In this document: positions 3,998-17,909 of the stretch, one piece after another
Numbering within the stretch: the stretch's first letter is position 1
How the letters are laid out: each line of letters begins with the position of its first letter
DNA from: Nitrospirota bacterium
GTDB lineage: Bacteria > Nitrospirota > Leptospirillia > Leptospirillales > Leptospirillaceae
DNA length: 64,000 nt
Direction: 5' to 3'
Assembly: GCA_027314645.1 (NCBI GenBank)
Contig: DAHVAL010000003.1
Coordinates: 62,001 to 126,000, forward strand
Program-made: the position numbers and the translations under genes
Notes under the pieces: model-generated
What the model saw: only the letters and a program-made list of their open reading frames with translations
Databases searched by the model: none
Told to the model about the DNA's origin: nothing

Positions 3998-4027
3998 TTG
4001 ACAGGACGACCCTCAATTTCTTATAGT
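3998..4027 (+). promoter_or_regulatory. Promoter of initiator tRNA
   Basis: TTGACA at 3998-4003 and TATAGT at 4022-4027 are separated by 18 nt. The -10 box ends only 5 nt before the first base of the mature tRNA, so the predicted start of transcription coincides with, or lies within a base or two of, tRNA position 1. Confidence 0.7.
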
Positions 4028-5188: not shown

Positions 5189-6373
5189 ATGAGAGAAACG
5201 GGGGGACACGCCTTCCTTGCGGGAATCGTTATCATTGGTGCGCTCACGGCTCCCTCCTCCTGGGCGCTCCCGAGCCGACATGGAAATGGCTCTGCGGAAA
5301 ATGTGGGGGCGGAACAGGGATATCCGGGGGATCGGAACCGATTGGGGTACCTCAATAAGGAGGACCAAGGAGTCCTGAGGCTCTTTGGAAAGGCCTCCTA
5401 CCGGGGTCAAAAGGCGACCGACCTGGCAAGCCCCGCTGACCAATACAATCGCGGGCGCCTCTTTGAATATGGCCTGGGAGTCCCGAAGGATTACAAAAAA
5501 GCGGTCTCATGGTATCGGAAGGCGGCAGACCGGGGAGATGCTCTGGCGCAGGACCGATTGGGATTCCTCTTTGAAAATGGCCTGGGAGTCCGGAAAAATT
5601 TCGGAAAGGCGGTCTATTGGTACCAAAAAGCCGCAGACCAGGGAGATCCCGCCGGCCAAATCAATTTGGGATACCTTTACGGGAATGGCCTGGGGGTCCC
5701 AAGAGATTATTCCAAGGCCGCCTATTGGTACCGAAAAGCCGCGGACCACGGAGATCCAGGCGCCCAGATCAATATGGGGAACCTCTATGAGTATGGCCGG
5801 GGGGTCCCAAGAGATTATCCCAAGGCCGCCTCCTGGTTCCGGAAAGCGGCGGACCAGGGGTTCCCAGAGGCCCAGTACAATCTGGGAGGACTCTATTTAA
5901 CCGGCCAGGGGGTCCAAAAGGATGATGCGAAGGCTGTCTTCTGGTACCGGAAGGCCTTGAACGCGTCTCTGAAAACCGCGGATAAAGGGGACGCCAATGC
6001 CCAGTTCACTTTGGGGGCGCTCTATTACAATGGACACGGAGTCCCGAAGGATTACGCAAAGGCCGCCTATTGGTACCGAAAAGCCGCGGACCACGGCAAT
6101 CCAGTTGCACAGAGTGCCCTTGGGGACCTGTACTACAAGGGAGATGGAGTCCCGAGGGATTTTGCGAAGGCCGCCTCCTGGTACCGAAAGGCCGCAGACC
6201 AGGGAAATTCATTCGCGCAAAGCAATCTTGGGGTTCTCTATGCAAATGGTCAAGGGGTCTTGAGGAATTACAAAAAAGCCGCGGACTGGTGGCGGAGAGC
6301 CGCGGACCAGGGAGATGTGAAAGCCAAATCCAATCTTGAAAAACTCGACGCGATCATTCATGGGGGCAAGTAG
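5189..6373 (+). CDS. Exported Sel1-repeat (SLR) protein
   Basis: From the ATG at 5189 the product is 394 aa, starting with a signal peptide (MRETGGHAFLAGIVIIGAL, then SSWA). A longer frame from a GTG at 5090 would bury that signal, so the internal start is preferred although its ribosome site is weak. After a linker of about 80 residues come eight Sel1-like TPR-related repeats with the consensus A..NLG.LY.NG.GVP.DY.KAA.WYRKAADQGD, 36 residues each except one with a 6-residue insertion (LNASLK). SLR proteins are alpha-solenoid scaffolds in the periplasm that usually bind partner proteins in envelope assembly or signalling. The partner is unknown; neighbours give no hint. Confidence 0.9.
   Translation: MRETGGHAFLAGIVIIGALTAPSSWALPSRHGNGSAENVGAEQGYPGDRNRLGYLNKEDQGVLRLFGKASYRGQKATDLASPADQYNRGRLFEYGLGVPKDYKKAVSWYRKAADRGDALAQDRLGFLFENGLGVRKNFGKAVYWYQKAADQGDPAGQINLGYLYGNGLGVPRDYSKAAYWYRKAADHGDPGAQINMGNLYEYGRGVPRDYPKAASWFRKAADQGFPEAQYNLGGLYLTGQGVQKDDAKAVFWYRKALNASLKTADKGDANAQFTLGALYYNGHGVPKDYAKAAYWYRKAADHGNPVAQSALGDLYYKGDGVPRDFAKAASWYRKAADQGNSFAQSNLGVLYANGQGVLRNYKKAADWWRRAADQGDVKAKSNLEKLDAIIHGGK
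5440..6330 (+). repeat. DNA-level tandem repeat within the Sel1 gene
   Basis: About eight units with a 108-bp period (units begin near 5449, 5557, 5665, 5773, 5881, then 6007, 6115 and 6223; one interval is 126 bp). Near-identical stretches such as GCCTATTGGTACCGAAAAGC recur at 5720 and 6065, showing recent duplication or conversion within the gene. Confidence 0.85.
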
Positions 6374-6823
6374 TGTCCAGAAGGATTCTTCTGATCCCAA
6401 GCCCATCAAAGAACCGGAATTCCCGGATTCAAGTCCCACGCGCTCGCCACTCCTAATGACCTGTGAATTTCATCCTGGACGGTGTGCAAAATGGGACCTT
6501 TTGAGTCTCCGATCGGTCTGATCAAGCCCGAATGGGAGGACCCTGTCGTGTTCCCAGGGAGAGCCCCCACAGGGGAGGGTCTCATCTGATGGAGACCATT
6601 TTGAGCCATTCAGGATTTATGTGGCCTCCCTCTTTATGGCTGACGCGACTTGGAATTAAAAGAATGTGCAAAATTTTCCACATTCCTTCTCTGCCCACCC
6701 GTTTTCTCAGAGGTTCGTATTCTTTCTTCCGGAAGACTCAGGTACAATCAGGGAGCGGAAGCGTCCACCGGCCTTTTCAAGGACCACCCACATTTCCTGT
6801 AAAATAATCACGGAGAGTCCTCA
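6374..6823. other. Intergenic region with weak terminator
   Basis: No gene is recognised in these 450 bases. GGTCTC-8 nt-GAGACC followed by ATTTT at 6578-6602 is a possible weak terminator. A TAAAAT element near 6799 could be the -10 box for the small membrane ORF that follows; no good -35 is seen. Confidence 0.45.
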
Positions 6824-6955
6824 ATGCTTCGAAAATTCATCGATACCTACCCAATCCTGGCGGGCTCCCTCATCCTCGTCTCCATCGTCCTTTCGATTTT
6901 CGGCGTTACGGCATTGCTGGTCGTCCTCGCCAATTCATTTCTCGTAAAATCCTGA
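6824..6955 (+). CDS. 43-aa single-pass membrane peptide
   Basis: ATG at 6824 to TGA at 6953-6955, with GGAGAG 6 nt upstream of the start. The sequence begins MLRKFIDTYPILAG, followed by one long hydrophobic helix (about residues 10-40) and a short C-terminal LVKS. The positive N-terminus suggests N-in orientation. No family is recognised; peptides of this shape are often accessory subunits of respiratory or transport complexes, but no partner gene is adjacent (EttA follows 193 bp later). The ribosome site, clean start and codon quality support a real gene. Confidence 0.65.
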   Translation: MLRKFIDTYPILAGSLILVSIVLSIFGVTALLVVLANSFLVKS

Positions 6956-7148
6956 GGCTCATAGGCCGTCATCAAAGAATCCGGGGAGATCCTTCCATCG
7001 CGATCCGGTCATGGCCTTCCTGTTCAGGCGTTTGAAGCGGCACCAGGGGTTCGGAAGATTTCTCCCTGAAAACCGATTATCATAGACATCCGTGGGCAGC
7101 CCGCCGTTTTTGTGGAATTGAACCGAGTGTATTTTCGATTGGAGCTTC

Positions 7149-8816
7149 ATGGCACAGTACGTTTTCACGATGAATCGTGTCGGAAAGGTCGTCCCTCCCA
7201 AAAGGCAGATCCTTAAAGACATTTCCCTCAGTTTTCTTCCCGGAGCGAAGATCGGGGTCCTCGGACTCAACGGGTCGGGAAAGTCCACCCTCCTTCGCAT
7301 CATGGCGGGCGTGGATACCGATATTTTGGGAGAGGCGATCCCCATGCCGGGGATCCGGATCGGATATCTCCCCCAGGAGCCCGAAATCGATCCGAACGTC
7401 ACCGTTCGTTCCGCCGTGGAGGAAGGACTCGGGGAACTGTTCGACGCCCATAAAAAGCTCGAGGAAGTGTACGCCGCCTATGCCGACCCGGAGGCCGACT
7501 TCGACGCCCTGGCCAAGGAACAGGCCCGCCTTGAGGCCGTCATCGCCACTGGGGATGGCCATAATATGGAGCAGAAGATGGAAGTGGCCGCTGACGCTCT
7601 TCGGCTTCCTCCCTGGGACTCCCGGATCGCCACCCTCTCGGGAGGCGAAAAACGTCGCGTGGCCCTCTGCCGGCTTCTTCTTTCGAACCCGGACATGCTC
7701 CTTCTCGATGAACCCACCAACCACCTTGACGCCGAATCGGTGGAATGGCTGGAACAGTTTCTCCAAAAGTTTCCCGGAACGGTGGTGGCCGTCACCCACG
7801 ACAGGTATTTTTTGGACAACGCGGCGGAGTGGATTCTGGAACTTGACCGGGGAACCGGAATCCCCTGGAAGGGCAACTACAGCTCCTGGCTTGAGCAGAA
7901 GGAAGCTCGACTCGAGATTGAAGCCCGCCAGGAATCGGCCCGGATCAAAGCGATGAAACAGGAACTCGAATGGGTCCGGCAAAACCCGAAAGGCCGCCAG
8001 GCGAAATCGAAGGCCCGCATGTCCCGGTTCGACGAACTGTCTTCCCAGGAGTATCAAAAAAGAAACGAAACCCAGGAGATCTTCATTCCTGTCGCCGAAC
8101 GCCTCGGGGGCCAGGTCATCGAATTCAAGGAGGTGACGAAAGGCTACGGGGAGCGTCTTCTGATCGATCGACTGTCCTTCACCATCCCTCCCGGAGCCAT
8201 CGTGGGCATCATCGGTCCCAATGGCGCCGGAAAGTCCACCCTCTTCCGGATGATTATCGGAACGGACTCCCCCGATTCGGGGGAAATCCGTGTCGGTCAG
8301 TCGGTCCGGCTGTCCTATGTCGACCAGTCGCGGGACGCCCTTTCCAAAGACAAATCCGTCTTCGAGGAGATTTCGGGAGGGTCGGAGGTTTTGACCGTTG
8401 GACGGTTCGAAACCCCGGCCCGCGCCTATATCGGCCGGTTCAACTTCAAGGGGCCGGACCAACAGAAGATTGTGGGAACCCTCTCAGGGGGAGAGCGTGG
8501 CCGCCTTCATCTGGCCAAGACCCTCATTTCGGGGGGAAATGTGCTTCTTCTCGACGAGCCCTCGAACGACCTCGACGTGGAAACGCTGAGAGCTCTTGAA
8601 GATGCCCTCCTCGAATTTGCCGGGTGCGTTCTCGTGATCTCCCATGACCGGTGGTTCCTGGACCGGGTCGCCACGCACATCCTCTCGTTCGAAGGGGACT
8701 CGAGCATCACGTTCTTTGCCGGAAACTACCAGGAATACGAAACGGACAAGCGAAAGCGGCTTGGGGCGGAAGCGGCCAAACCCCACCGGCTCCGCTTCAA
8801 GCCGATCTCGCGGTGA
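7149..8816 (+). CDS. ettA: Energy-dependent translational throttle protein EttA (ABC-F)
   Basis: 555 aa, exactly the usual EttA length. Two ABC ATPase domains are present: Walker A GLNGSGKST (39-47) with LSGGEKRRVAL and DEPTNHLD, and Walker A GPNGAGKST (about 356-364) with LSGGERGRLHL and DEPSNDLD. Between the signature sequences lies the EttA arm (residues about 95-140) that contacts the ribosomal E site, and the linker KQELEWVRQNPKGRQAKSKAR is typical. EttA gates entry into elongation according to the ATP/ADP ratio. The start has GGAG 6 nt upstream. Its stop overlaps the GTG start of the amidotransferase gene, so the two are translationally coupled. Confidence 0.96.
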   Translation: MAQYVFTMNRVGKVVPPKRQILKDISLSFLPGAKIGVLGLNGSGKSTLLRIMAGVDTDILGEAIPMPGIRIGYLPQEPEIDPNVTVRSAVEEGLGELFDAHKKLEEVYAAYADPEADFDALAKEQARLEAVIATGDGHNMEQKMEVAADALRLPPWDSRIATLSGGEKRRVALCRLLLSNPDMLLLDEPTNHLDAESVEWLEQFLQKFPGTVVAVTHDRYFLDNAAEWILELDRGTGIPWKGNYSSWLEQKEARLEIEARQESARIKAMKQELEWVRQNPKGRQAKSKARMSRFDELSSQEYQKRNETQEIFIPVAERLGGQVIEFKEVTKGYGERLLIDRLSFTIPPGAIVGIIGPNGAGKSTLFRMIIGTDSPDSGEIRVGQSVRLSYVDQSRDALSKDKSVFEEISGGSEVLTVGRFETPARAYIGRFNFKGPDQQKIVGTLSGGERGRLHLAKTLISGGNVLLLDEPSNDLDVETLRALEDALLEFAGCVLVISHDRWFLDRVATHILSFEGDSSITFFAGNYQEYETDKRKRLGAEAAKPHRLRFKPISR

Positions 8817-9529
8817 AATCCCCTTCTCCCTCCGCCCTGGTCCTTTCCCATGTGTCCTTCGAAGACACCGGAACCTTGGGCCGCCTCCTGGAGACGCGCG
8901 GATTTCGGATCCAACCCATTGAGCCGGGCCTCTCGGCCGGAGCCGTTCCCGACCCGAAAGCCCCCGACCTCGTGGTGGTCCTGGGGGGACCGATTGGAGT
9001 CTATGAGGAGGCGCGATTCCCATTCCTTAAACAGGAAATCGACTTTGTCGAACGGAGACTGTCCTCGAAAAAACCGATCGTCGGGATCTGTCTGGGAGCT
9101 CAATTGATCGCGAAGGCATTGGGAGCGCGCGTCTATCCCTCCAAAACCACGGAAATCGGGTGGTTTCCCCTCCACCTGACCGATGCCGGGCGTGACTCCC
9201 CCTTAGCCTTGCTTGGCGACGGGGCTCCCATGCTTCATTGGCATGAAGACACCTTCGATCTTCCGGAGGGGACGTCCAATCTTGCCTGGTCGGACCGGGT
9301 TTCCCACCAGGCGTTCATGGTGGATCAGTCTGCCCTGGCCCTCCAGTTCCACCCGGAGATCCGGGGAGAGTCCCTTGAACGGTGGTTGATCGGCCATGCC
9401 TTTGAACTCGCCTCCCGCAACATCGATCTTTCCATTTTGAGACGGCAGACAAAAGAATACGCAATGGATCTCGAAAGAAGGGCCGAAGCCTTCTTCTCCC
9501 GCTGGCTCTCCGACGCAGGGCTCCTCTGA
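8813..9529 (+). CDS. Class I glutamine amidotransferase-like protein
   Basis: 238 aa from the GTG at 8813, which overlaps the ettA stop by 4 nt; an upstream extension in the same frame merely shadows ettA. The nucleophile elbow GICLGAQL, an upstream VVLGGPIGVYEE strand, and LQFHPEIRGE supply the Cys-His-Glu triad of class I amidotransferases. It resembles the GuaA-N-like group (YfeJ/YfdC type) that stand alone; the last 50 residues are a helical tail. The substrate is unknown: such proteins hydrolyse gamma-glutamyl amides, so a role in glutamine or glutathione-type metabolism is possible. An RecD-like helicase gene follows after 11 nt. Confidence 0.85.
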   Translation: MKSPSPSALVLSHVSFEDTGTLGRLLETRGFRIQPIEPGLSAGAVPDPKAPDLVVVLGGPIGVYEEARFPFLKQEIDFVERRLSSKKPIVGICLGAQLIAKALGARVYPSKTTEIGWFPLHLTDAGRDSPLALLGDGAPMLHWHEDTFDLPEGTSNLAWSDRVSHQAFMVDQSALALQFHPEIRGESLERWLIGHAFELASRNIDLSILRRQTKEYAMDLERRAEAFFSRWLSDAGLL

Positions 9530-9540
9530 CGAGGCACACG

Positions 9541-10920
9541 ATGGTCTTCCGCCCCCCGGCCTTCCCATGGACACCGGATCCGACCGATCCATCGGCCTCC
9601 CTGGCCTCCCTCCTGGACCATCCGGAGGTCTCCTCAGCCATCCTTTCGGGGCCTGCCGGATCCGGAAAAACGACATTGACGGCAGGATTTCTACGCAAGG
9701 CGGTCAGCAGAGGGCTGTCCCTCGCGATCGCCGCCCCGACCCATAAGGCGGTCCGCGTTCTCAGAGAAACTTTGGGACAGGAGGACCTGGTCGCCCGGCA
9801 CCTTCTGTTCACCACATTGCACTCGCTTCTTGGGCTCAAGCTCTCGGAAAACGAGGACGGCTCGTTTTCCATCAAGCCGGGGCCGGCGCCGGAACTCTCC
9901 TTGTTCGATTGGATTATCGTCGACGAATGTTCCCTTGTCGGGCAGGATCTTCTCGAGGCCCTTGAACGCGCCCGAGGAACCGCCCGAATTCTTTATGTTG
10001 GTGATCCTTACCAGTTGCCTCCGGTGGAAGCCCTCCACCTTGAAACCCCGCCGGTGTTTGCTCTTCCTGTCCCCCGCCTCGCCTTGGCACAGGTTCATCG
10101 CCAACGCGAAGACCATCCCATTCACCTTCTCACGCGGACCCTTCTTTCCTGGAACATCGAGGAGGGCCGGCCGACGCCCAAAGCGCTCTTCCCGGAGCTG
10201 GAGAGCCTCGTGCCGGAAGACCTCTCCCACACCGGTCAGCTCCTCTGGATTCCGGGAGGCAGCAAGGAAGCGGTCCGATGGTCGGCCCACCTGTCAGACG
10301 CGGGAAGCAACATCCGGATTCTGGCGTATACGAACCGGCGGGTCGAGCAGTACAACCGCGAGCTTTTTCGAAGGCATTACGGGGTACTCGCAACCCCCTT
10401 CGCGCGTCATGAACGGGTCCTGCTTCACGAAACAATCGGAGTCAAAACCGAGGAAGGAGAGTTGCGGGTTCTCCCGGCCGGCGAGGAATGGACCGTTCTC
10501 GAAATTGTCCCTGAGCGGAATCCCGAATACCCCGACATCCCTGCCCACCGTGTGTATCTTGAAGACGATTCCGGAGACACTGTGTCCGTCCTCGTGTGCG
10601 ACGACTCCGCGACTCATCAGAAGAGAATTGACGAACTATTCAAGGAAATCCGAGATCTTCGGGACAGGACCCCCGGGGCCCGAAAGGAAATCGGGCCCCT
10701 CTCGAAAAAAGCCTGGGGCCTGAAGCGGGCCTTTGCCCCCTTGCGCCATGGATATGCGACCACGGTCTTCAAGGCCCAAGGGAGCACCTTCGATTCGGTG
10801 ATTGTCGACTGGCGGGACATGAATCTTTTCCGTGAGGACCGAGCCTTCCTGAGAGCCCTCTATGTGGCGGGGACGCGTCCCCGCCACAGGCTTCTTTTCT
10901 CGGCCTCGTCCGTGCTCTGA
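9541..10920 (+). CDS. RecD/Dda-like superfamily 1 helicase
   Basis: 459 aa. Motif I is GPAGSGKTTL (about 37-46), followed by AAPTHKAV (motif Ia), the Walker B strand IIVDECSLV, GDPYQLPPV (motif III) and, near the C-terminus, FKAQGSTFDSVIVD and the motif VI region LYVAGTRPRHRLLF. The order and spacing match SF1B helicases of the RecD2/Dda type, which move 5'-3' on single-stranded DNA. It lacks the N-terminal domains of RecD2, hence is closer to the compact Dda-like form. It sits 11 nt after the amidotransferase gene and converges with sat, separated by 57 bp. A stem-loop GAG-CGGG-GATT-CCCG-CTC lies in that gap. Confidence 0.85.
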   Translation: MVFRPPAFPWTPDPTDPSASLASLLDHPEVSSAILSGPAGSGKTTLTAGFLRKAVSRGLSLAIAAPTHKAVRVLRETLGQEDLVARHLLFTTLHSLLGLKLSENEDGSFSIKPGPAPELSLFDWIIVDECSLVGQDLLEALERARGTARILYVGDPYQLPPVEALHLETPPVFALPVPRLALAQVHRQREDHPIHLLTRTLLSWNIEEGRPTPKALFPELESLVPEDLSHTGQLLWIPGGSKEAVRWSAHLSDAGSNIRILAYTNRRVEQYNRELFRRHYGVLATPFARHERVLLHETIGVKTEEGELRVLPAGEEWTVLEIVPERNPEYPDIPAHRVYLEDDSGDTVSVLVCDDSATHQKRIDELFKEIRDLRDRTPGARKEIGPLSKKAWGLKRAFAPLRHGYATTVFKAQGSTFDSVIVDWRDMNLFREDRAFLRALYVAGTRPRHRLLFSASSVL

Positions 10921-10977
10921 CCTCTTGAGCCGGGGATTCCCGCTCCGCTTCGTTCGATGGGGGCAAAAACGCCGGAA

Positions 10978-12171
10978 TTACGCCGAATCCGAGGTGACGG
11001 GGACCTGTTCTTCCTTCGTGCGGTAATGCCCGATCAGCACAGCGGCAACTTCCGGGCGCGTCATCTCCGGTGGGGGCGGGAGACCGTCGCGCAGCATCTG
11101 GCGGACTTTGGTGCCCGAAAGCAGAACATGGGAGTTTTCGTCATGGCCGCAGGTCTTGTGGGAGACCATTCCTTCGCAGGTCCGGCAATAATAGGCCGTA
11201 TCGAAGAAGATGGGGATGATTCCGAGTTCGTCGAAGGAAAATTGCCGGAGCAGGGCATGGGCCTCGAACGGTCCATAAAAACTTCCAACCCCCGCGTGGT
11301 CCCGGCCGATGATGAAATGAGTGCATCCGTAGTTCTTCCGAACGAGGGCATGAAACAGGGCTTCCCTTGGCCCGGCATACCGCATCGACCCCGGGAAAAC
11401 CCCCAGAATGACCCGGGTCTTTGGGTAATAGCGCTCAAGAAGAACCTGATAGCAATCCATCCGGACCCGGGCCGGAACGTCGTCTTCCTTGGTTTCACCG
11501 ACAAGGGGGTGAAGGAAAAGCCCGTCCACCACCTCGAGTGAGCACTTCTGGATATACTCGTGAGCCCGGTGAATCGGATTCCTGGTCTGAAATCCGACGA
11601 CCGTCTGCCAACCCAGCTGCTCGAAGAGTGACCGCGAGGCGGTGGGTGTGAGATGAAACTCGGAAAACGGTCCATCCGACCAGTCCTCGATGACGGAAAC
11701 CTTTCCTCCTGCGGCATAGGGCGTTCCAAGCCGCTCGAGAGCCGCCACACCTGGATGGGCCGGATCATTCGTCTTGTAGACTTCCTTGGCTTCCCAGACC
11801 AGATCCCGTTTAAAGAGGTCGGAGACGGTCAGAATCCCCAGGAGCTTGTCCGATTGATCGACCAGCCTGACAACCTCCCCGATACGAAGCGACCGGAACT
11901 CCTTTTCGAGGATCGGCAGGACGATCGGAAGGGGAAAAACGAGCCCGTCGGGGAGCCGCATGCGTTGAACCACCGACCGGTAGCTTTGTTCGTCCATGAA
12001 TCCGTCGAGAGGGCTCACCGCCCCGACGGCGATCAGCCCAAGATCCGAAATTTCACGCGCAGAGAGGCGAATTTCCGGATGGTTTGCATAGGCCCTCTGC
12101 ATTTCAGGCCGGGCGTTTTTGGAAATGGTTGCACTCACAAGACGGCCACCGTGGGGGACTGAGAGGAACAT
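10978..12171 (-). CDS. sat: Sulfate adenylyltransferase
   Basis: 397-aa homo-oligomeric ATP sulfurylase, which interconverts sulfate + ATP and adenylylsulfate (APS) + pyrophosphate. Visible motifs are QTRNPIHRAHEY (about 194-205, the HxxH-type nucleotide-binding motif), GRDHAGVG (about 287-294), and a Cys/His-containing segment CRTCEGMVSHKTCGHD near the C-terminus, a zinc site common in the Sat forms paired with APS reductase. It is the last gene of a three-gene unit with aprA and aprB; 24 bp separate it from aprB. With AprBA it could either activate sulfate for reduction or release ATP from APS during sulfite oxidation. Confidence 0.95.
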   Translation of the reverse strand: MFLSVPHGGRLVSATISKNARPEMQRAYANHPEIRLSAREISDLGLIAVGAVSPLDGFMDEQSYRSVVQRMRLPDGLVFPLPIVLPILEKEFRSLRIGEVVRLVDQSDKLLGILTVSDLFKRDLVWEAKEVYKTNDPAHPGVAALERLGTPYAAGGKVSVIEDWSDGPFSEFHLTPTASRSLFEQLGWQTVVGFQTRNPIHRAHEYIQKCSLEVVDGLFLHPLVGETKEDDVPARVRMDCYQVLLERYYPKTRVILGVFPGSMRYAGPREALFHALVRKNYGCTHFIIGRDHAGVGSFYGPFEAHALLRQFSFDELGIIPIFFDTAYYCRTCEGMVSHKTCGHDENSHVLLSGTKVRQMLRDGLPPPPEMTRPEVAAVLIGHYRTKEEQVPVTSDSA

Positions 12172-12195
12172 CGGGTCTCCTTATTGAGGATAGGT

Positions 12196-12543
12196 CTATT
12201 GTTCGTTTTCGAGAAGGTCTTCGGGAACACGCGTGGCCAATTCAAACACCTGCTCAGGGTCTCCGTCCACGAAAAGGGTCCATCGGATCGACTCCTTTTT
12301 GAGCTTCGGGACGAGCCGGGCGTCCCGTCCCGCCAACTCGTAGGGAAGGACCACGTCGATCGCACCCACCGGACACATTTTTACGCAGGCGAAGCAATCC
12401 CAGCAGTCGGCTTGCTCCCTCATCACCGCCAGATTCCCGCCGTCCTTCATCCGGATCAGATTTCCCGGGCAGGCGACCACGCATCGGGCTTCCGGCAACT
12501 TTTTGCATCCGTGGCAAAGACCTTCATTGATCGAAATTCCCAT
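12196..12543 (-). CDS. aprB: Adenylylsulfate reductase, beta subunit (two [4Fe-4S])
   Basis: 115 aa. Eight cysteines form two [4Fe-4S] clusters: C10-x2-C13-x7-C21-x3-C25 and C47-x2-C50-x2-C53-x3-C57, with the CWDCFACVKMCP block characteristic of AprB. Electrons pass from these clusters to the FAD of AprA. The start has GGAAGG upstream. Classical AprB of sulfate reducers carries a longer C-terminal tail wrapping AprA; this one stops about 35-45 residues earlier. It lies between aprA and sat on the same transcript. Confidence 0.9.
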   Translation of the reverse strand: MGISINEGLCHGCKKLPEARCVVACPGNLIRMKDGGNLAVMREQADCWDCFACVKMCPVGAIDVVLPYELAGRDARLVPKLKKESIRWTLFVDGDPEQVFELATRVPEDLLENEQ

Positions 12544-12582
12544 CCTTCCCCCTTCCTCTCCTGATTCTCGGCGCCCTCTGGA

Positions 12583-14328
12583 TCAGGCCTTTTGGAGAAC
12601 GGCTTCGCCTTCAGAGACCGAAACGTTCCAGGACAATTCCTCGCCTTCGAGCGTCCGGTGGACGATACGAATCTCTCCCGAGGGCAAGACGACGGAATTG
12701 ATGAAATGTTCATATTTCATATCACTTTCCGGATAATCCATGCGGGTTTGGAATCCCGGCCACCGGGTCTCCCTCCGGGCCAGAAGGTGCGCCACCAAAA
12801 CACGTGCGACATCCACCCGGTCCGCCACTTCATGGGCCAGCATCAGAGCGTAGTCGTCCTCCGAATAAATCCTGGAGAGATCCCCCGAAAGTTCCTCAAT
12901 CTTTTTCCGGGCCATCAAGAGACCCGCCTCGTTCATCGCATAGGATGTCCGGATGCCGCCGGCATATTCATCCATGATTTTCTGAAGACGCGCTTCCGCC
13001 TCCTCCGGCCGAATCCTTTCCTCGGGGGGCGCTGGGGAATCCTTCCAGACCATTGTCCGGCCCCTTTCCGCGGCGACCTCTTCCGGGGACGGAGAGACCA
13101 GGCGCCTCCCTCCGGACGTGATTTCCTTTGATGCCGCGCGCGCGGCAATGGCCCCTTCTGCGAAGCACCCGCTGACGAATTTGTATGGGGCGCCTCCGGC
13201 GACGTCTCCGGCCGCGAATAGATTTGTGAGGGTTGTCCGGCGGTCGACATCCACCCAATAGCCCGCCTGGCAATGGCCTCCGACCAGGTAAGGCTCGGTC
13301 CCGCAAATTTCAACGGGAGATTCGGTCAGGTCGATCCGGTTCGAGGCCCAGTAAAGGACCGTATTGGGATACATGTCGAGATAGGCTTCGTACAATCGCT
13401 TCAGATCGTCCTTCGTCAGGTGCCGCGTATCCATAAAGCAGGGACCGTTTCCGGCGGCCATTTCCCGGAGGGGGCCTTCGAGGCGCAGGGGAGTCGGTGC
13501 CCCCTCCCCCCCGGCATGCGACCACCGGATCTTCATGAATTCTTCCCCCTTGGAGTTGACTTGGGGGGCACGAAAACCCAGGGCCAGTGTTCCGGTGGGA
13601 GCGATCGTGTCCTTGGTCCTGAGCGCGATGAACCGGTGCTCGAAGCTCGTCATTTCGGCCCCCGCTCTGATTCCGATCGCGTATCCCGCCCCTGTATTGA
13701 AGGGCGAATACCACATCTTGTGACGGGCCAGCCCTTCGTTGTTCGGACGGTAGAGGCCCGACGCCCCTCCCGTGGCGACCACCGTCTTAAGGGCCGAAAG
13801 GACATAAAAGGTGCCGTCGGAAATCCCGAATCCGTAGGCTCCATGGACGGTGCCGTCTTGTACGATGAGATTGGTGATCACCACGCGATTCAACACCTCT
13901 GCTCCCGATTTCCGGACTTCCCGCGCCAGGATCGGCTTGAGCGACTCTCCATGGATTTTGATGTTCCAGCGGCCTCGGGGAGAGTAGCTTCCGTCGGCAT
14001 CCTTCACAATCGGAAGTCCCATGGCCTCGACGGTTTCGACCACCTCCTTGAAGAGGGCCGCCTGGGACCTGACAAGGTCTTCCCTCAGAATCCCCATCGC
14101 ATCCATGCGGACATAATCCACGAAGGAATCGATCGTTTCTCCCGGATTGATGTAGGCATTGATCGCATTCATTCCTCCGGCGAGACATCCCGACCGGTCG
14201 ATATGCGCCTTATCCACGACAAGGACGGACAGGTCCGGATTTTCGCGCCGGGCAATGATCGCTGCGTAGCAGCCCGCCGTTCCGCCGCCGATGATCAGCA
14301 GATCGGTTTCAAGGAATTTGGTGTCCAT
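12583..14328 (-). CDS. aprA: Adenylylsulfate reductase, alpha (FAD) subunit
   Basis: 581 aa from the ATG at 14328, which sits 4 nt after GGAGGT; an ATG one codon earlier is too close to that site. FAD-binding GGGTAG is at 14-19. MTSFEHRF, EPYLVGGHCQAGYW and YKFVSGCFAEGAIAAR correspond to conserved AprA segments around the FAD and substrate, and LQKIMDEYAGGI and RRETRWPGF match the AprA C-terminal domain. AprA reduces APS to sulfite and AMP, or the reverse. It is about 60 residues shorter than the dissimilatory enzyme of Archaeoglobus. No qmo or dsr genes are adjacent, so the electron donor and physiological direction stay open. Confidence 0.92.
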   Translation of the reverse strand: MDTKFLETDLLIIGGGTAGCYAAIIARRENPDLSVLVVDKAHIDRSGCLAGGMNAINAYINPGETIDSFVDYVRMDAMGILREDLVRSQAALFKEVVETVEAMGLPIVKDADGSYSPRGRWNIKIHGESLKPILAREVRKSGAEVLNRVVITNLIVQDGTVHGAYGFGISDGTFYVLSALKTVVATGGASGLYRPNNEGLARHKMWYSPFNTGAGYAIGIRAGAEMTSFEHRFIALRTKDTIAPTGTLALGFRAPQVNSKGEEFMKIRWSHAGGEGAPTPLRLEGPLREMAAGNGPCFMDTRHLTKDDLKRLYEAYLDMYPNTVLYWASNRIDLTESPVEICGTEPYLVGGHCQAGYWVDVDRRTTLTNLFAAGDVAGGAPYKFVSGCFAEGAIAARAASKEITSGGRRLVSPSPEEVAAERGRTMVWKDSPAPPEERIRPEEAEARLQKIMDEYAGGIRTSYAMNEAGLLMARKKIEELSGDLSRIYSEDDYALMLAHEVADRVDVARVLVAHLLARRETRWPGFQTRMDYPESDMKYEHFINSVVLPSGEIRIVHRTLEGEELSWNVSVSEGEAVLQKA

Positions 14329-14365
14329 CATGACCTCCAATGTTATAAAAGATTACTAACAAAAT

Positions 14366-14489: not shown

Positions 14490-14531
14490 AAAAAAAAAGC
14501 CCGAAGCCGGATTACACCGGCTTCAGGCTAA
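14490..14531 (-). terminator. Rho-independent terminator of the 38-aa gene
   Basis: On the minus strand AGCC-(T)-GAAGCCGG, a TGTAAT loop and CCGGCTTC-(G)-GGCT form a long GC-rich stem followed by a run of nine T. It lies about 20 nt after the stop of the 38-aa membrane peptide gene and insulates it from the aprA promoter. Confidence 0.9.
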
Positions 14532-14551: not shown

Positions 14552-14668
14552 CTAATTCTTCGAGGAGGTGGCGTATCCCCATGCAAAAATGAAGGCGATG
14601 ATTGCAAGGAAACTCATCCAGCCTAAAAAGCTCGGGTTTTCACCCACCAATCTGTGAGCGTCGTACAT
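14552..14668 (-). CDS. 38-aa single-pass membrane peptide
   Basis: ATG at 14668, TAG at 14554-14552, with a GGGGGG purine run about 4 nt upstream. The peptide starts MYDAHRLVGENPSFLGWM, continues with one helix (LAIIAFIFAWGYA, about residues 20-33) and ends TSSKN. The layout resembles small subunits of haem-copper oxidases and other respiratory complexes, but no partner gene is adjacent and the family is not recognised. It has its own near-consensus promoter and a strong terminator, which argues for an abundant, independently expressed small protein. Confidence 0.75.
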   Translation of the reverse strand: MYDAHRLVGENPSFLGWMSFLAIIAFIFAWGYATSSKN

Positions 14669-14728
14669 TTGACCCCCCTTGCTCCGTTCCAGGAATATAG
14701 TTTATGATGAGAACGTCAACGCCTACCC

Positions 14729-14757
14729 AATATAGGCAGTGTGCGTCCACTTGTCAA
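14729..14757 (-). promoter_or_regulatory. Near-consensus promoter of the 38-aa gene
   Basis: On the minus strand TTGACA (14757-14752), 17 nt, TATATT (14734-14729). The start codon is about 61 nt downstream of the -10 box. The rest of the gap up to 14983 shows no gene and no clear promoter for the divergent CNNM/CorC gene. Confidence 0.8.
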
Positions 14758-14983: not shown

Positions 14984-16342
14984 ATGACCCCGGTCTGGAT
15001 AGATGCCCTTGCCATCGTGGTTCTCGTCCTCTTCAATGCCGTCCTTGCGGCCGCGGAGCTTTCCATTATTTCGCTCAGGCTTTCCAAGGTGCAGCAGCTC
15101 GCCGGAACAGGATCGCCTGAAAGCCGGGCTCTTTTAAAGCTTCGGAAGGATCCGGAACGTTTCGTCGCCACGATCCAGGTCATGATGACGCTGACCACCG
15201 GACTCGCGTCCGGCGCCACCGGCACGGTCTCCTACGAGAAGCTGAAGCCGATCCTTGCGGTGGCCGTCGACCTGCATGCGCACCCTGTCCTCCTTCCCCT
15301 CACCGTTTTTGCCGTCATCCTGCTCCAGGTTTTCGGAATGCTCGTGCTGGGAGAGATCGTTCCCAAAACCCTCGCGATCCAGAACAACGAACGAATCGCC
15401 TTAAGGCTTGCCAGACCGGTCCTGCTCCTGTCGGAACTGATCAAAATTCCAGTCCATGTCGTCACGTTGACAAGCCGCATCGTCCTGAAGCTCTTCCGCG
15501 TCGCCCCCGGACCCTCCTCCTATCCGATCAGTCCCGAGGAGCTGGAGCTTCTTCTGAAAGAAGGCAGCCAGCACGGGATCATCAACAGGACCGAACAGGA
15601 CCTCATTCAAAGCGTATTCAAGTTCACGGATATTTCCGTCCGGGAGGTCATGGTTCCCCGGGTCCGCATGGTGACCATCCGGACGACCATGGGGCTCCCG
15701 GAAATACAGGGGATCTTCTCCGAGCATCGCTATTCCCGCTATCCCGTCCTCCGTGGAGAGACGGAAGAAGTGGTGGGGATCCTCTACTACAAGGATCTTG
15801 CGGATATCCTGACAGAACAGACCCCTTTCCAGATCGAGCGCATCCTCCATGCGCCCTACTTCGTTCCCGAGTCCATGAAGGTCCCCCATATTCTAAAAGA
15901 GATGCAGAAACGGAGAACCCAGATGGCCCTGGTTCTCAACGAATACGGCTCCCTCGACGGACTCGTGACGATGGAGGACCTCCTTGAAGAAATCGTGGGG
16001 GAAATTGAAGACGAATCGGACGAACTCACCAAACCGGTGGAGAGGCTCCGGGACGGCTCATACATTGTGGATGCCTCTCTTTCGGTCCGGGATCTCTCGG
16101 AAGACTATGGAATCCCCATTCCGGAAGGGGAAGACTATGAGACCCTGGCGGGATTTGTGCTTTCCCAGCTTCAGACCATCCCTCGCGGAGGGGAGTTTTT
16201 CTTTGCGAACAACATGAAGCTGACAGTGGTCGAAATCGACCGCCAGCGGGTTTCCAGGGTCAGAGTGGAGTTCCTCGACATGGCGAAGGCGGGCTCAGAG
16301 AAAAAACATATCGTCAAAACTGAAACCGGAGAAACGCGTTGA
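14984..16342 (+). CDS. CNNM/CorC-type membrane protein (HlyC/CorC family, CBS domains)
   Basis: 452 aa. The N-terminal 190 residues are a CNNM (DUF21) membrane domain with four hydrophobic segments, starting VWIDALAIVVLVLFNAVLAAAELS, where the small-residue AELS motif is typical. Two CBS domains follow (about 207-270, with REVMVPRVRM and GILYYKDLADIL, and about 280-335, with NEYGSLDGLVTMEDLLEEIVG), then a CorC/HlyC domain (about 350-430). Members are implicated in Mg2+ or Co2+ efflux or its regulation; the CBS pair usually binds adenine nucleotide. The next gene overlaps its stop codon, and a third overlaps that, making a three-gene membrane operon. Confidence 0.92.
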   Translation: MTPVWIDALAIVVLVLFNAVLAAAELSIISLRLSKVQQLAGTGSPESRALLKLRKDPERFVATIQVMMTLTTGLASGATGTVSYEKLKPILAVAVDLHAHPVLLPLTVFAVILLQVFGMLVLGEIVPKTLAIQNNERIALRLARPVLLLSELIKIPVHVVTLTSRIVLKLFRVAPGPSSYPISPEELELLLKEGSQHGIINRTEQDLIQSVFKFTDISVREVMVPRVRMVTIRTTMGLPEIQGIFSEHRYSRYPVLRGETEEVVGILYYKDLADILTEQTPFQIERILHAPYFVPESMKVPHILKEMQKRRTQMALVLNEYGSLDGLVTMEDLLEEIVGEIEDESDELTKPVERLRDGSYIVDASLSVRDLSEDYGIPIPEGEDYETLAGFVLSQLQTIPRGGEFFFANNMKLTVVEIDRQRVSRVRVEFLDMAKAGSEKKHIVKTETGETR

Positions 16343-16917
16343 AGAAACTGTCCAATTCGCCCCTCGTCAAACTTCTTCTTTCTCCTATCGGACTTTTCAT
16401 CGTGATCGGCTTGGTCGGTGGACTCTTCGTCGCGGATCTGTTCCGCGGGATCGCCGAACGGCAAGCCGCCCAACCGCAGGTTCAGACAGGGCCGCTCAAC
16501 ACCTCCCAAGCGCCTCTCGCCTATTCGGAAACCTATGCTCCCGTCTCCGATAACGGGATTGTCGGATTCAAGGCGGAAAAGCTTCTTGAAAAAGACGGCA
16601 AAACGTATGTCGAAATCACGGTTCACTTTCACAGGCATCCCAATTACGTCGATTATGAAGTCGGTGTCTATGAACCCCCGACCCTCGTGGACAAAAACTC
16701 GAATCTCCTTTTGGGAACCGTCGATTTCCCGGCAAACCGCCATTTTCTGGGAGGGGAGACTTACCGCACCATTTTATCTTTTCCCGGACGTCCCGCCTCC
16801 TACCCGGTCACCCTCTCCCTGTTCATGGGGGAACGCTTCGCAGGCCAATACCACATGCTCACCATTTCGCTCACGGGACTTTCTCCCGCGCCAAACAAAA
16901 GGAACAATCGAACGTGA
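16339..16917 (+). CDS. Hypothetical protein with N-terminal membrane anchor
   Basis: 192 aa, TTG start at 16339 overlapping the stop of the CorC-like gene by 4 nt, with GGAGAA about 6 nt upstream. One membrane helix occupies about residues 10-32 (SPIGLFIVIGLVGGLFVADL). The rest is a soluble region of predicted beta character (VEITVHFHRHPNYVDYEVGVY, YRTILSFPG), presumably outside the cytoplasm. No family recognised. The overlaps on both sides suggest that it works with the CorC-like transporter and the following membrane protein. Confidence 0.75.
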   Translation: MKKLSNSPLVKLLLSPIGLFIVIGLVGGLFVADLFRGIAERQAAQPQVQTGPLNTSQAPLAYSETYAPVSDNGIVGFKAEKLLEKDGKTYVEITVHFHRHPNYVDYEVGVYEPPTLVDKNSNLLLGTVDFPANRHFLGGETYRTILSFPGRPASYPVTLSLFMGERFAGQYHMLTISLTGLSPAPNKRNNRT

Positions 16918-17909
16918 CCCATGATCAAACCGTCCGCATCATCGATCCGGAGGAAGAGGACAGGAACGAAAAATTTTCTTCTGCCATGATGGGAGCGGCC
17001 TCCGGACAAATTTTCGGCCTGATGGCCTTTTTCATCGGACTCGTCAACGGGGTGATGTCGGACCAGCAGGGGGGATTGATCAACATTGGATGGGGAATGG
17101 GCCTCTTCACGTTCTTTACCCTCCTTCATTTCGGGATCTCCCGGAAATGGGTGGGCTCCCCCCAAAAGCCCCTCCTTCAGGAAAGCCTCGGTTTTTTTGG
17201 GCCGGCCTTCCTCGGGGCGCTCCTGTACTTTTACGCCTCCTTCGCCAATACGGATTGGCTTATTTTGGGATATGCGGGCGGACTTCTCTACGTCATCCTC
17301 CTTGGCAAAGGTGTCCTGTTTATCGAGGCGCTCCCTCCCCGGTCGAGAAAAACGACCTATATTTTTTCTCCCTTTGACAAGGAGGGCCTTCTGATCGTGG
17401 TCCTGATCGGATCCGTTCTCGGTGTGGGCGTCGGCATGGCCTCCCATGGGCAGCGGGGGATCGGGAGAGGCCCTTTTGCACGCACCTATCTCTCTGAAAA
17501 AATTAAGAACTCCCGATTTCAAGTCGATCTGCTTCTTTTTGGAATGCCCCACTCTTACCGTTTGATCCAGGCGCTCAAGGGAGCACAGGAGAAAGGGGTC
17601 CCTGTCAGGGTCCTCCTCACCCGGGACGCCGCTTCCCATTATTCGCGCCAGCTCGACTCCATCGAATCCCTGCACGTTCCGATCCGGATTCTCCCTTCCG
17701 CCCTCCCAACCTATGTCCATCCGATGGCCCTGTTCGATCGTCGCATCCTCCTCTACGGATCGGGCGGGTGGGGCGCCCTTGAGCCAGGCGGCGGGAACCA
17801 AATGAAGATGGTGGCCAATATCCTCTCAATCGGAAAGATCCGAAACTCCCAGAAAACCTTTGACTCTCTCTGGGGACGGTCCCACACCGTCTCCGCGTCT
17901 CCTCCATAA
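16914..17909 (+). CDS. Membrane protein with degenerate phospholipase D-like domain
   Basis: 331 aa, GTG start overlapping the previous stop by 4 nt. An acidic N-terminus precedes four or five hydrophobic segments in the first 180 residues (for example IFGLMAFFIGLVNGV and LLIVVLIGSVLGVGVGMA). The soluble C-terminal part starts with FARTYLSEKIKNSRFQVDLLLFG and contains GVPVRVLLTRD and YVHPMALFDRRILLYGSGGW, which follow the phospholipase D/Cls fold. However, the HxK(x)4D motif is replaced by HPMALFD, so the catalytic lysine is absent. Probably a non-enzymatic PLD-like membrane protein; the assignment is by pattern and tentative. Confidence 0.7.
   Translation: MTHDQTVRIIDPEEEDRNEKFSSAMMGAASGQIFGLMAFFIGLVNGVMSDQQGGLINIGWGMGLFTFFTLLHFGISRKWVGSPQKPLLQESLGFFGPAFLGALLYFYASFANTDWLILGYAGGLLYVILLGKGVLFIEALPPRSRKTTYIFSPFDKEGLLIVVLIGSVLGVGVGMASHGQRGIGRGPFARTYLSEKIKNSRFQVDLLLFGMPHSYRLIQALKGAQEKGVPVRVLLTRDAASHYSRQLDSIESLHVPIRILPSALPTYVHPMALFDRRILLYGSGGWGALEPGGGNQMKMVANILSIGKIRNSQKTFDSLWGRSHTVSASPP

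Follow-up and report, generated by a model that had tools for sequence, protein, structure and literature searches.

Among described small membrane proteins that bear comparison with the locus analysed here, PetN of cytochrome b6f comprises about 30 aa in one helix, KdpF and MgtS are small peptides acting on transporters, and CcoM, of which the PDB contains a chain, is encoded apart from the genes of its complex. Leptospirillum-type bacteria are acid-loving and important in acid mine drainage and bioleaching, and the Leptospirillum family is known for iron oxidation. CcoM of the Pseudomonas stutzeri cbb3 oxidase is a 36-aa subunit (PMC10433244), and YohP of E. coli, a very small inner-membrane peptide of 27 aa, has been tied to starvation and the stationary phase (PMC12719787). 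The 64-kb window (the whole stretch of DNA that was analysed) encodes a 38-aa peptide that resembles CcoM in its similar size and its single membrane helix, but it displays no detectable sequence similarity to CcoM, and its profile gave no oxidase match in the PDB. CydX, the small subunit of cytochrome bd, is alike in size and in its single helix, and FixQ/CcoQ is likewise a single-helix small oxidase subunit, whereas the peptide matches neither PF08173 nor PF05545. With PetN the peptide shares a G-W near the helix start and a W-G near the helix end, but the spacing between the two W differs and no profile match was obtained, and the resemblance is likely a coincidence. YohP is comparable as a very small inner-membrane peptide, but no homology to it was detected in any search run. 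With fewer than 50 aa, one hydrophobic helix and coding selection, the peptide belongs to the class of single-pass small membrane proteins, among which it represents a new lineage-specific family.

The small-peptide unit occupies 268 bp of the minus strand and contains promoter, leader, ribosome site, ORF and terminator, as shown in Table 1. This agrees with a preliminary description of the same DNA, which had reported a near-consensus promoter, a G-rich ribosome site, a 38-codon membrane ORF and a strong terminator within about 270 bp, and all of whose coordinates proved accurate. The promoter, TTGACA-17-TATATT, matches the consensus at 11 of 12 positions, and the window contains four promoter-like sites of at least 11/12, compared with an average of 0.07 per sequence among 60 Markov-1 sequences of equal length; the other three sites lie at 3998 (+), 44341 (+) and 43187 (-). 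An exact search of the entire 2.04-Mb genome for TTGACA-N17-TATATT returned two occurrences, and the one outside this unit adjoins a gene that looks hrcA-like by eye. Both hexamers are invariant across 11 species of the window's genus, where the identity in the genus alignment is 41% before the promoter and 32% from the stop codon to the terminator. The promoter type is also kept in the other four genera, with TTGACA found upstream of the peptide gene wherever the upstream sequence reached far enough, and with TATATT, or in one case AATATT, as the -10 box. The ribosome site is preserved as AAGGGGG(G) in every genus member. Nine of the 13 pairs of the terminator hairpin are GC, its loop comprises 6 nt and eight T follow, and most relatives carry a hairpin and a T-run of differing sequence 3' of the peptide stop codon, as judged by eye. 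The stand-alone character that had been claimed for the unit was also borne out, as was the membrane ORF; the unit has promoter-like and terminator-like sequences of its own, and the downstream aprA-like gene possesses a promoter-like site of its own (10/12) beyond the peptide terminator, so that nothing suggests read-through. The strong expression proposed earlier is inferred from the promoter only, and an abundant peptide is plausible.

Table 1. Positions of the peptide unit, its neighbours and the loci compared with it (window positions unless a contig is given).
Feature	Position	Strand	Remarks
Small-peptide unit	14757-14490	-	268 bp
Promoter TTGACA-17-TATATT	14757-14729	-	
-35 hexamer TTGACA	14752..14757	-	read in the window; identical in 10 other genus members aligned
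-10 hexamer TATATT	14729..14734	-	17-nt spacer; 100% identical in the genus
Putative 5' leader, about 54 nt	14669..14722	-	contains GACGTTCTCATCATAAACTATWTTCC
Leader stretch GACGTTCTCATCATAAACTAT	14697-14717	-	invariant in the genus
G-rich ribosome site AAGGGGGG	14673..14680	-	4 nt before ATG
38-codon ORF MYDAHRLVGENPSFLGWMSFLAIIAFIFAWGYATSSKN	14552..14668	-	short N-terminal segment and one helix
Intrinsic terminator	14490..14529	-	13-pair stem 14529-14498, then T8
Promoter-like site of aprA-like gene	14394-14366		10/12
AprA-like gene (FAD_binding_2)	12583-14340	-	next downstream of the peptide unit
AprA-like flavoprotein, small 4Fe-4S protein, ATP sulfurylase	10978-14340	-	beside the peptide
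CNNM/CBS/CorC_HlyC protein gene	14984-16342	+	upstream, divergent from the peptide gene
192-aa protein	16339-16917	+	no Pfam match
PLD-like-domain protein	16914-17909	+	
CydX of the window's genome	G000:C20:18501-18581		PF08173 match
Unusual cbb3-like cluster	G000:C22:145000-161000, 6359-12032		

Transcription would start about 7 nt past the -10 box, and the leader so delimited is more conserved within the genus than the coding sequence, with mean identities to the window of 85% and 76%, respectively. Within it, GACGTTCTCATCATAAACTATWTTCC hardly varies across the genus alignment, and a second genomic copy of the first 21 bases of this segment was not found with up to three mismatches allowed. 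Neither the sequence nor the length of the leader is kept in the other four genera, where 84-146 nt separate the -10 box from the start codon. A riboswitch or other structured leader was rejected, as the predicted fold was not better than that of shuffled sequences (z = +1.2), a consensus fold in the genus alignment showed no covariation, and an Rfam search returned chance-level matches only. The leader is constrained above the protein, for which an RNA or protein binding site, or optimised initial transcription or translation, are possibilities. It is distinctly improbable that the transcript is a dual-function RNA, in which GACGTTCTCATCATAAACTATWTTCC would act as a regulatory element of this genus by base-pairing or protein binding while the peptide would serve as a family-specific subunit of the iron-oxidising electron-transport chain.

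The 38-codon ORF is almost certainly a real protein gene, because the frame is conserved in relatives, which was the check proposed in the preliminary description. Comparison of the window gene with 11 genus members gave pN/pS ratios of 0.18-0.25, with 84, 30 and 163 differences at the first, second and third codon positions, respectively. A profile of the peptide matched 20 of the 21 sampled genomes of the Leptospirillum family, which represent five genera, with E-values from 9e-26 to 6e-11; in one genome (G011) the contig end falls inside the gene. The sole family genome where no match was obtained (G001) is an assembly 66% complete, and the locus may therefore be absent from the assembly only. 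The gene is single-copy in the window's genome and holds the same chromosomal place in all five genera. Among the rest of the 396 sampled genomes of the phylum no relative was detected, the best match (1e-3) being a fragment inside a long unrelated frame. Weak matches in other families of the phylum, located within larger ORFs and in one case at 35% identity, were rejected as they are not conserved short frames, and those lying in frame resembled FtsW/RodA-type helices by eye. A scan of viral contigs did not reveal a relative either, and the peptide is not mentioned in the article text of the Leptospirillum omics papers searched.

When ORFs of 30-60 aa in the window were screened for 19-residue segments averaging 1.6 or more on the Kyte-Doolittle scale, 8 of 344 qualified, the peptide among them with 1.86. 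An AlphaFold2 model built from 13 sequences predicts a helix over residues 12-37, with a mean pLDDT of 79 that rises to 94 in residues 21-30. Residues M1, W17, F28, W30, G31, T34 and S35 are invariant across the genera, and V8, N11 and V24 are nearly so, the window's own copy having I at position 24. Conservation over columns 15-36 of the peptide alignment, expressed as genus-weighted entropy, shows a periodicity of 95-105 degrees (permutation p = 0.01), and W17, V24, F28, G31 and S35 share one face of the helix. That conservation is concentrated on one side of the helix makes a packing partner probable. The charges are positive at the C-terminus and mixed at the N-terminus, which makes a topology with the N-terminus outside and the C-terminus inside the likelier one.

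Differential conservation was also observed on the two sides of the gene. The order peptide, CNNM/CorC, two genes, Rrf2-IscR, IscS, IscU and IscA recurs in every genus to the extent that the contigs cover it, and the two genes that always lie between corC and iscR, encoding the 192-aa protein and the PLD-like-domain protein, evolve faster than their neighbours. On the opposite side, an AprA-AprB-Sat-like set adjoins the peptide in genera g1, g2 (genome G018), g4 and g5, while different genes occur in g3, which includes a one-contig genome of 2.56 Mb (G015); the peptide gene is thus not tied to the sulfur genes. The set itself points to a possible sulfur metabolism in this family.

Whether queried with the profile or with individual sequences, Pfam, NCBIfam and the PDB gave chance matches only (TatA/E, DUFs and yfhH), and the PDB search yielded no chain of a solved small respiratory subunit up to E = 10. 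Neither role suggested in the preliminary description, a respiratory subunit or a membrane regulator, was backed by a match to a described family or solved chain. An NCBIfam model named 'cytochrome oxidase small assembly protein' matched one member at E = 0.26, which was not taken as evidence. The YbgT_YccB profile (PF08173) did not match the window peptide or its relatives, while CydX itself passed the Pfam cut-off in 16 of the 21 family genomes, the window's own included; the peptide is not CydX, because CydX is encoded at a separate locus in these genomes. FixQ/CcoQ (PF05545) gave no match above the cut-off in any of the 21 family genomes, the peptide included, though parts of cbb3-type oxidases are present in the family. 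The oxidases of this family may therefore use small subunits unrelated to FixQ/CcoQ, and a small subunit peculiar to the family is plausible, CcoM being a precedent for oxidase subunits of very small size (PMC10433244). An unusual cbb3-like cluster in the window's genome encodes two separate proteins of ~190 aa whose COX1 matches are limited to the final third of COX1 (positions ~305-432), and the gene of an FGE-sulfatase-domain protein lies between these two pieces. The cluster also holds FixO-like and FixS-like proteins, one weakly FixP_N-like protein and several small membrane ORFs.

The favoured explanation, to which a probability of about 0.38 is assigned, is that the peptide serves as an accessory helix in a membrane complex that is abundant and probably respiratory. 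The separately transcribed gene would be copied from its strong, near-consensus promoter into a short RNA of about 230 nt ending at the hairpin, and translation from the G-rich ribosome site would yield a single-pass inner-membrane peptide specific to the Leptospirillum family, inserted as one helix in the orientation suggested by its charges. The conserved face would then pack against a larger membrane protein, with W30 and T34 joining it at the membrane end, and the likeliest partner would be an abundant electron-transport complex, stabilised or tuned by the peptide as by CcoM, CydX or PetN. Against a respiratory role stand the constant neighbours, which are the CNNM/CorC transporter and isc genes, the position of the peptide gene outside any respiratory operon, the small membrane proteins that the cbb3-like cluster encodes itself, and the lack of similarity to known small subunits in Pfam, NCBIfam and the PDB. 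If the peptide does belong to an oxidase, a bc1 or an iron-oxidation complex, it would fill a gap in that chain; a conserved membrane protein of 38 residues is easily overlooked by annotation and by ordinary proteomics. The present evidence describes a sound new small-protein family, not a surprising mechanism, and the exact coordinates of the gene make its role directly testable.

Other roles for a conserved membrane helix were weighed against this accessory subunit. A peptide that acts in the membrane without a fixed partner, in stress or acid adaptation, by altering proton leak or the order of the lipids and possibly by forming homo-oligomers, is doubtful: one short hydrophobic helix under its own promoter in a family of acidophiles fits such a role, a single conserved face is also compatible with self-association, and YohP offers a precedent for this kind of action (PMC12719787), but the constraint on specific W, G, T and S residues exceeds what a generic hydrophobic peptide needs, and expression from a near-consensus promoter is more likely to be constitutive than induced by stress. 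It appears unlikely that the peptide regulates or assists a membrane transporter in the manner of KdpF or MgtS, for which the divergent CNNM/CorC protein would be the nearest candidate. The constancy of the corC adjacency forms the basis of this proposal, as the head-to-head arrangement is kept in five genera and the genes on the opposite side change in g3, but CNNM/CorC proteins are widespread while the peptide is limited to one family, the synteny may just track the isc cluster, and the peptide gene is driven by a strong promoter of its own.

Two further explanations were considered. The small hydrophobic peptide, the leader of about 55 nt and the strong promoter recall a toxin of a type I toxin-antitoxin system of the TisB or Ldr kind, which is nevertheless very improbable given a single copy whose location is shared by all genera, purifying selection, a leader no more structured than shuffled sequences and an antisense (plus) strand on which no promoter-like site above 8/12 was found within the unit. 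An expressed non-coding RNA carrying the ORF by chance is hardly credible; the higher conservation of the leader than of the ORF within the genus and the chance-level Rfam matches were counted in its favour, but it is already contradicted by the third-position bias, by a pN/pS of about 0.2 and by the conservation of the peptide across genera whose leader is not conserved.
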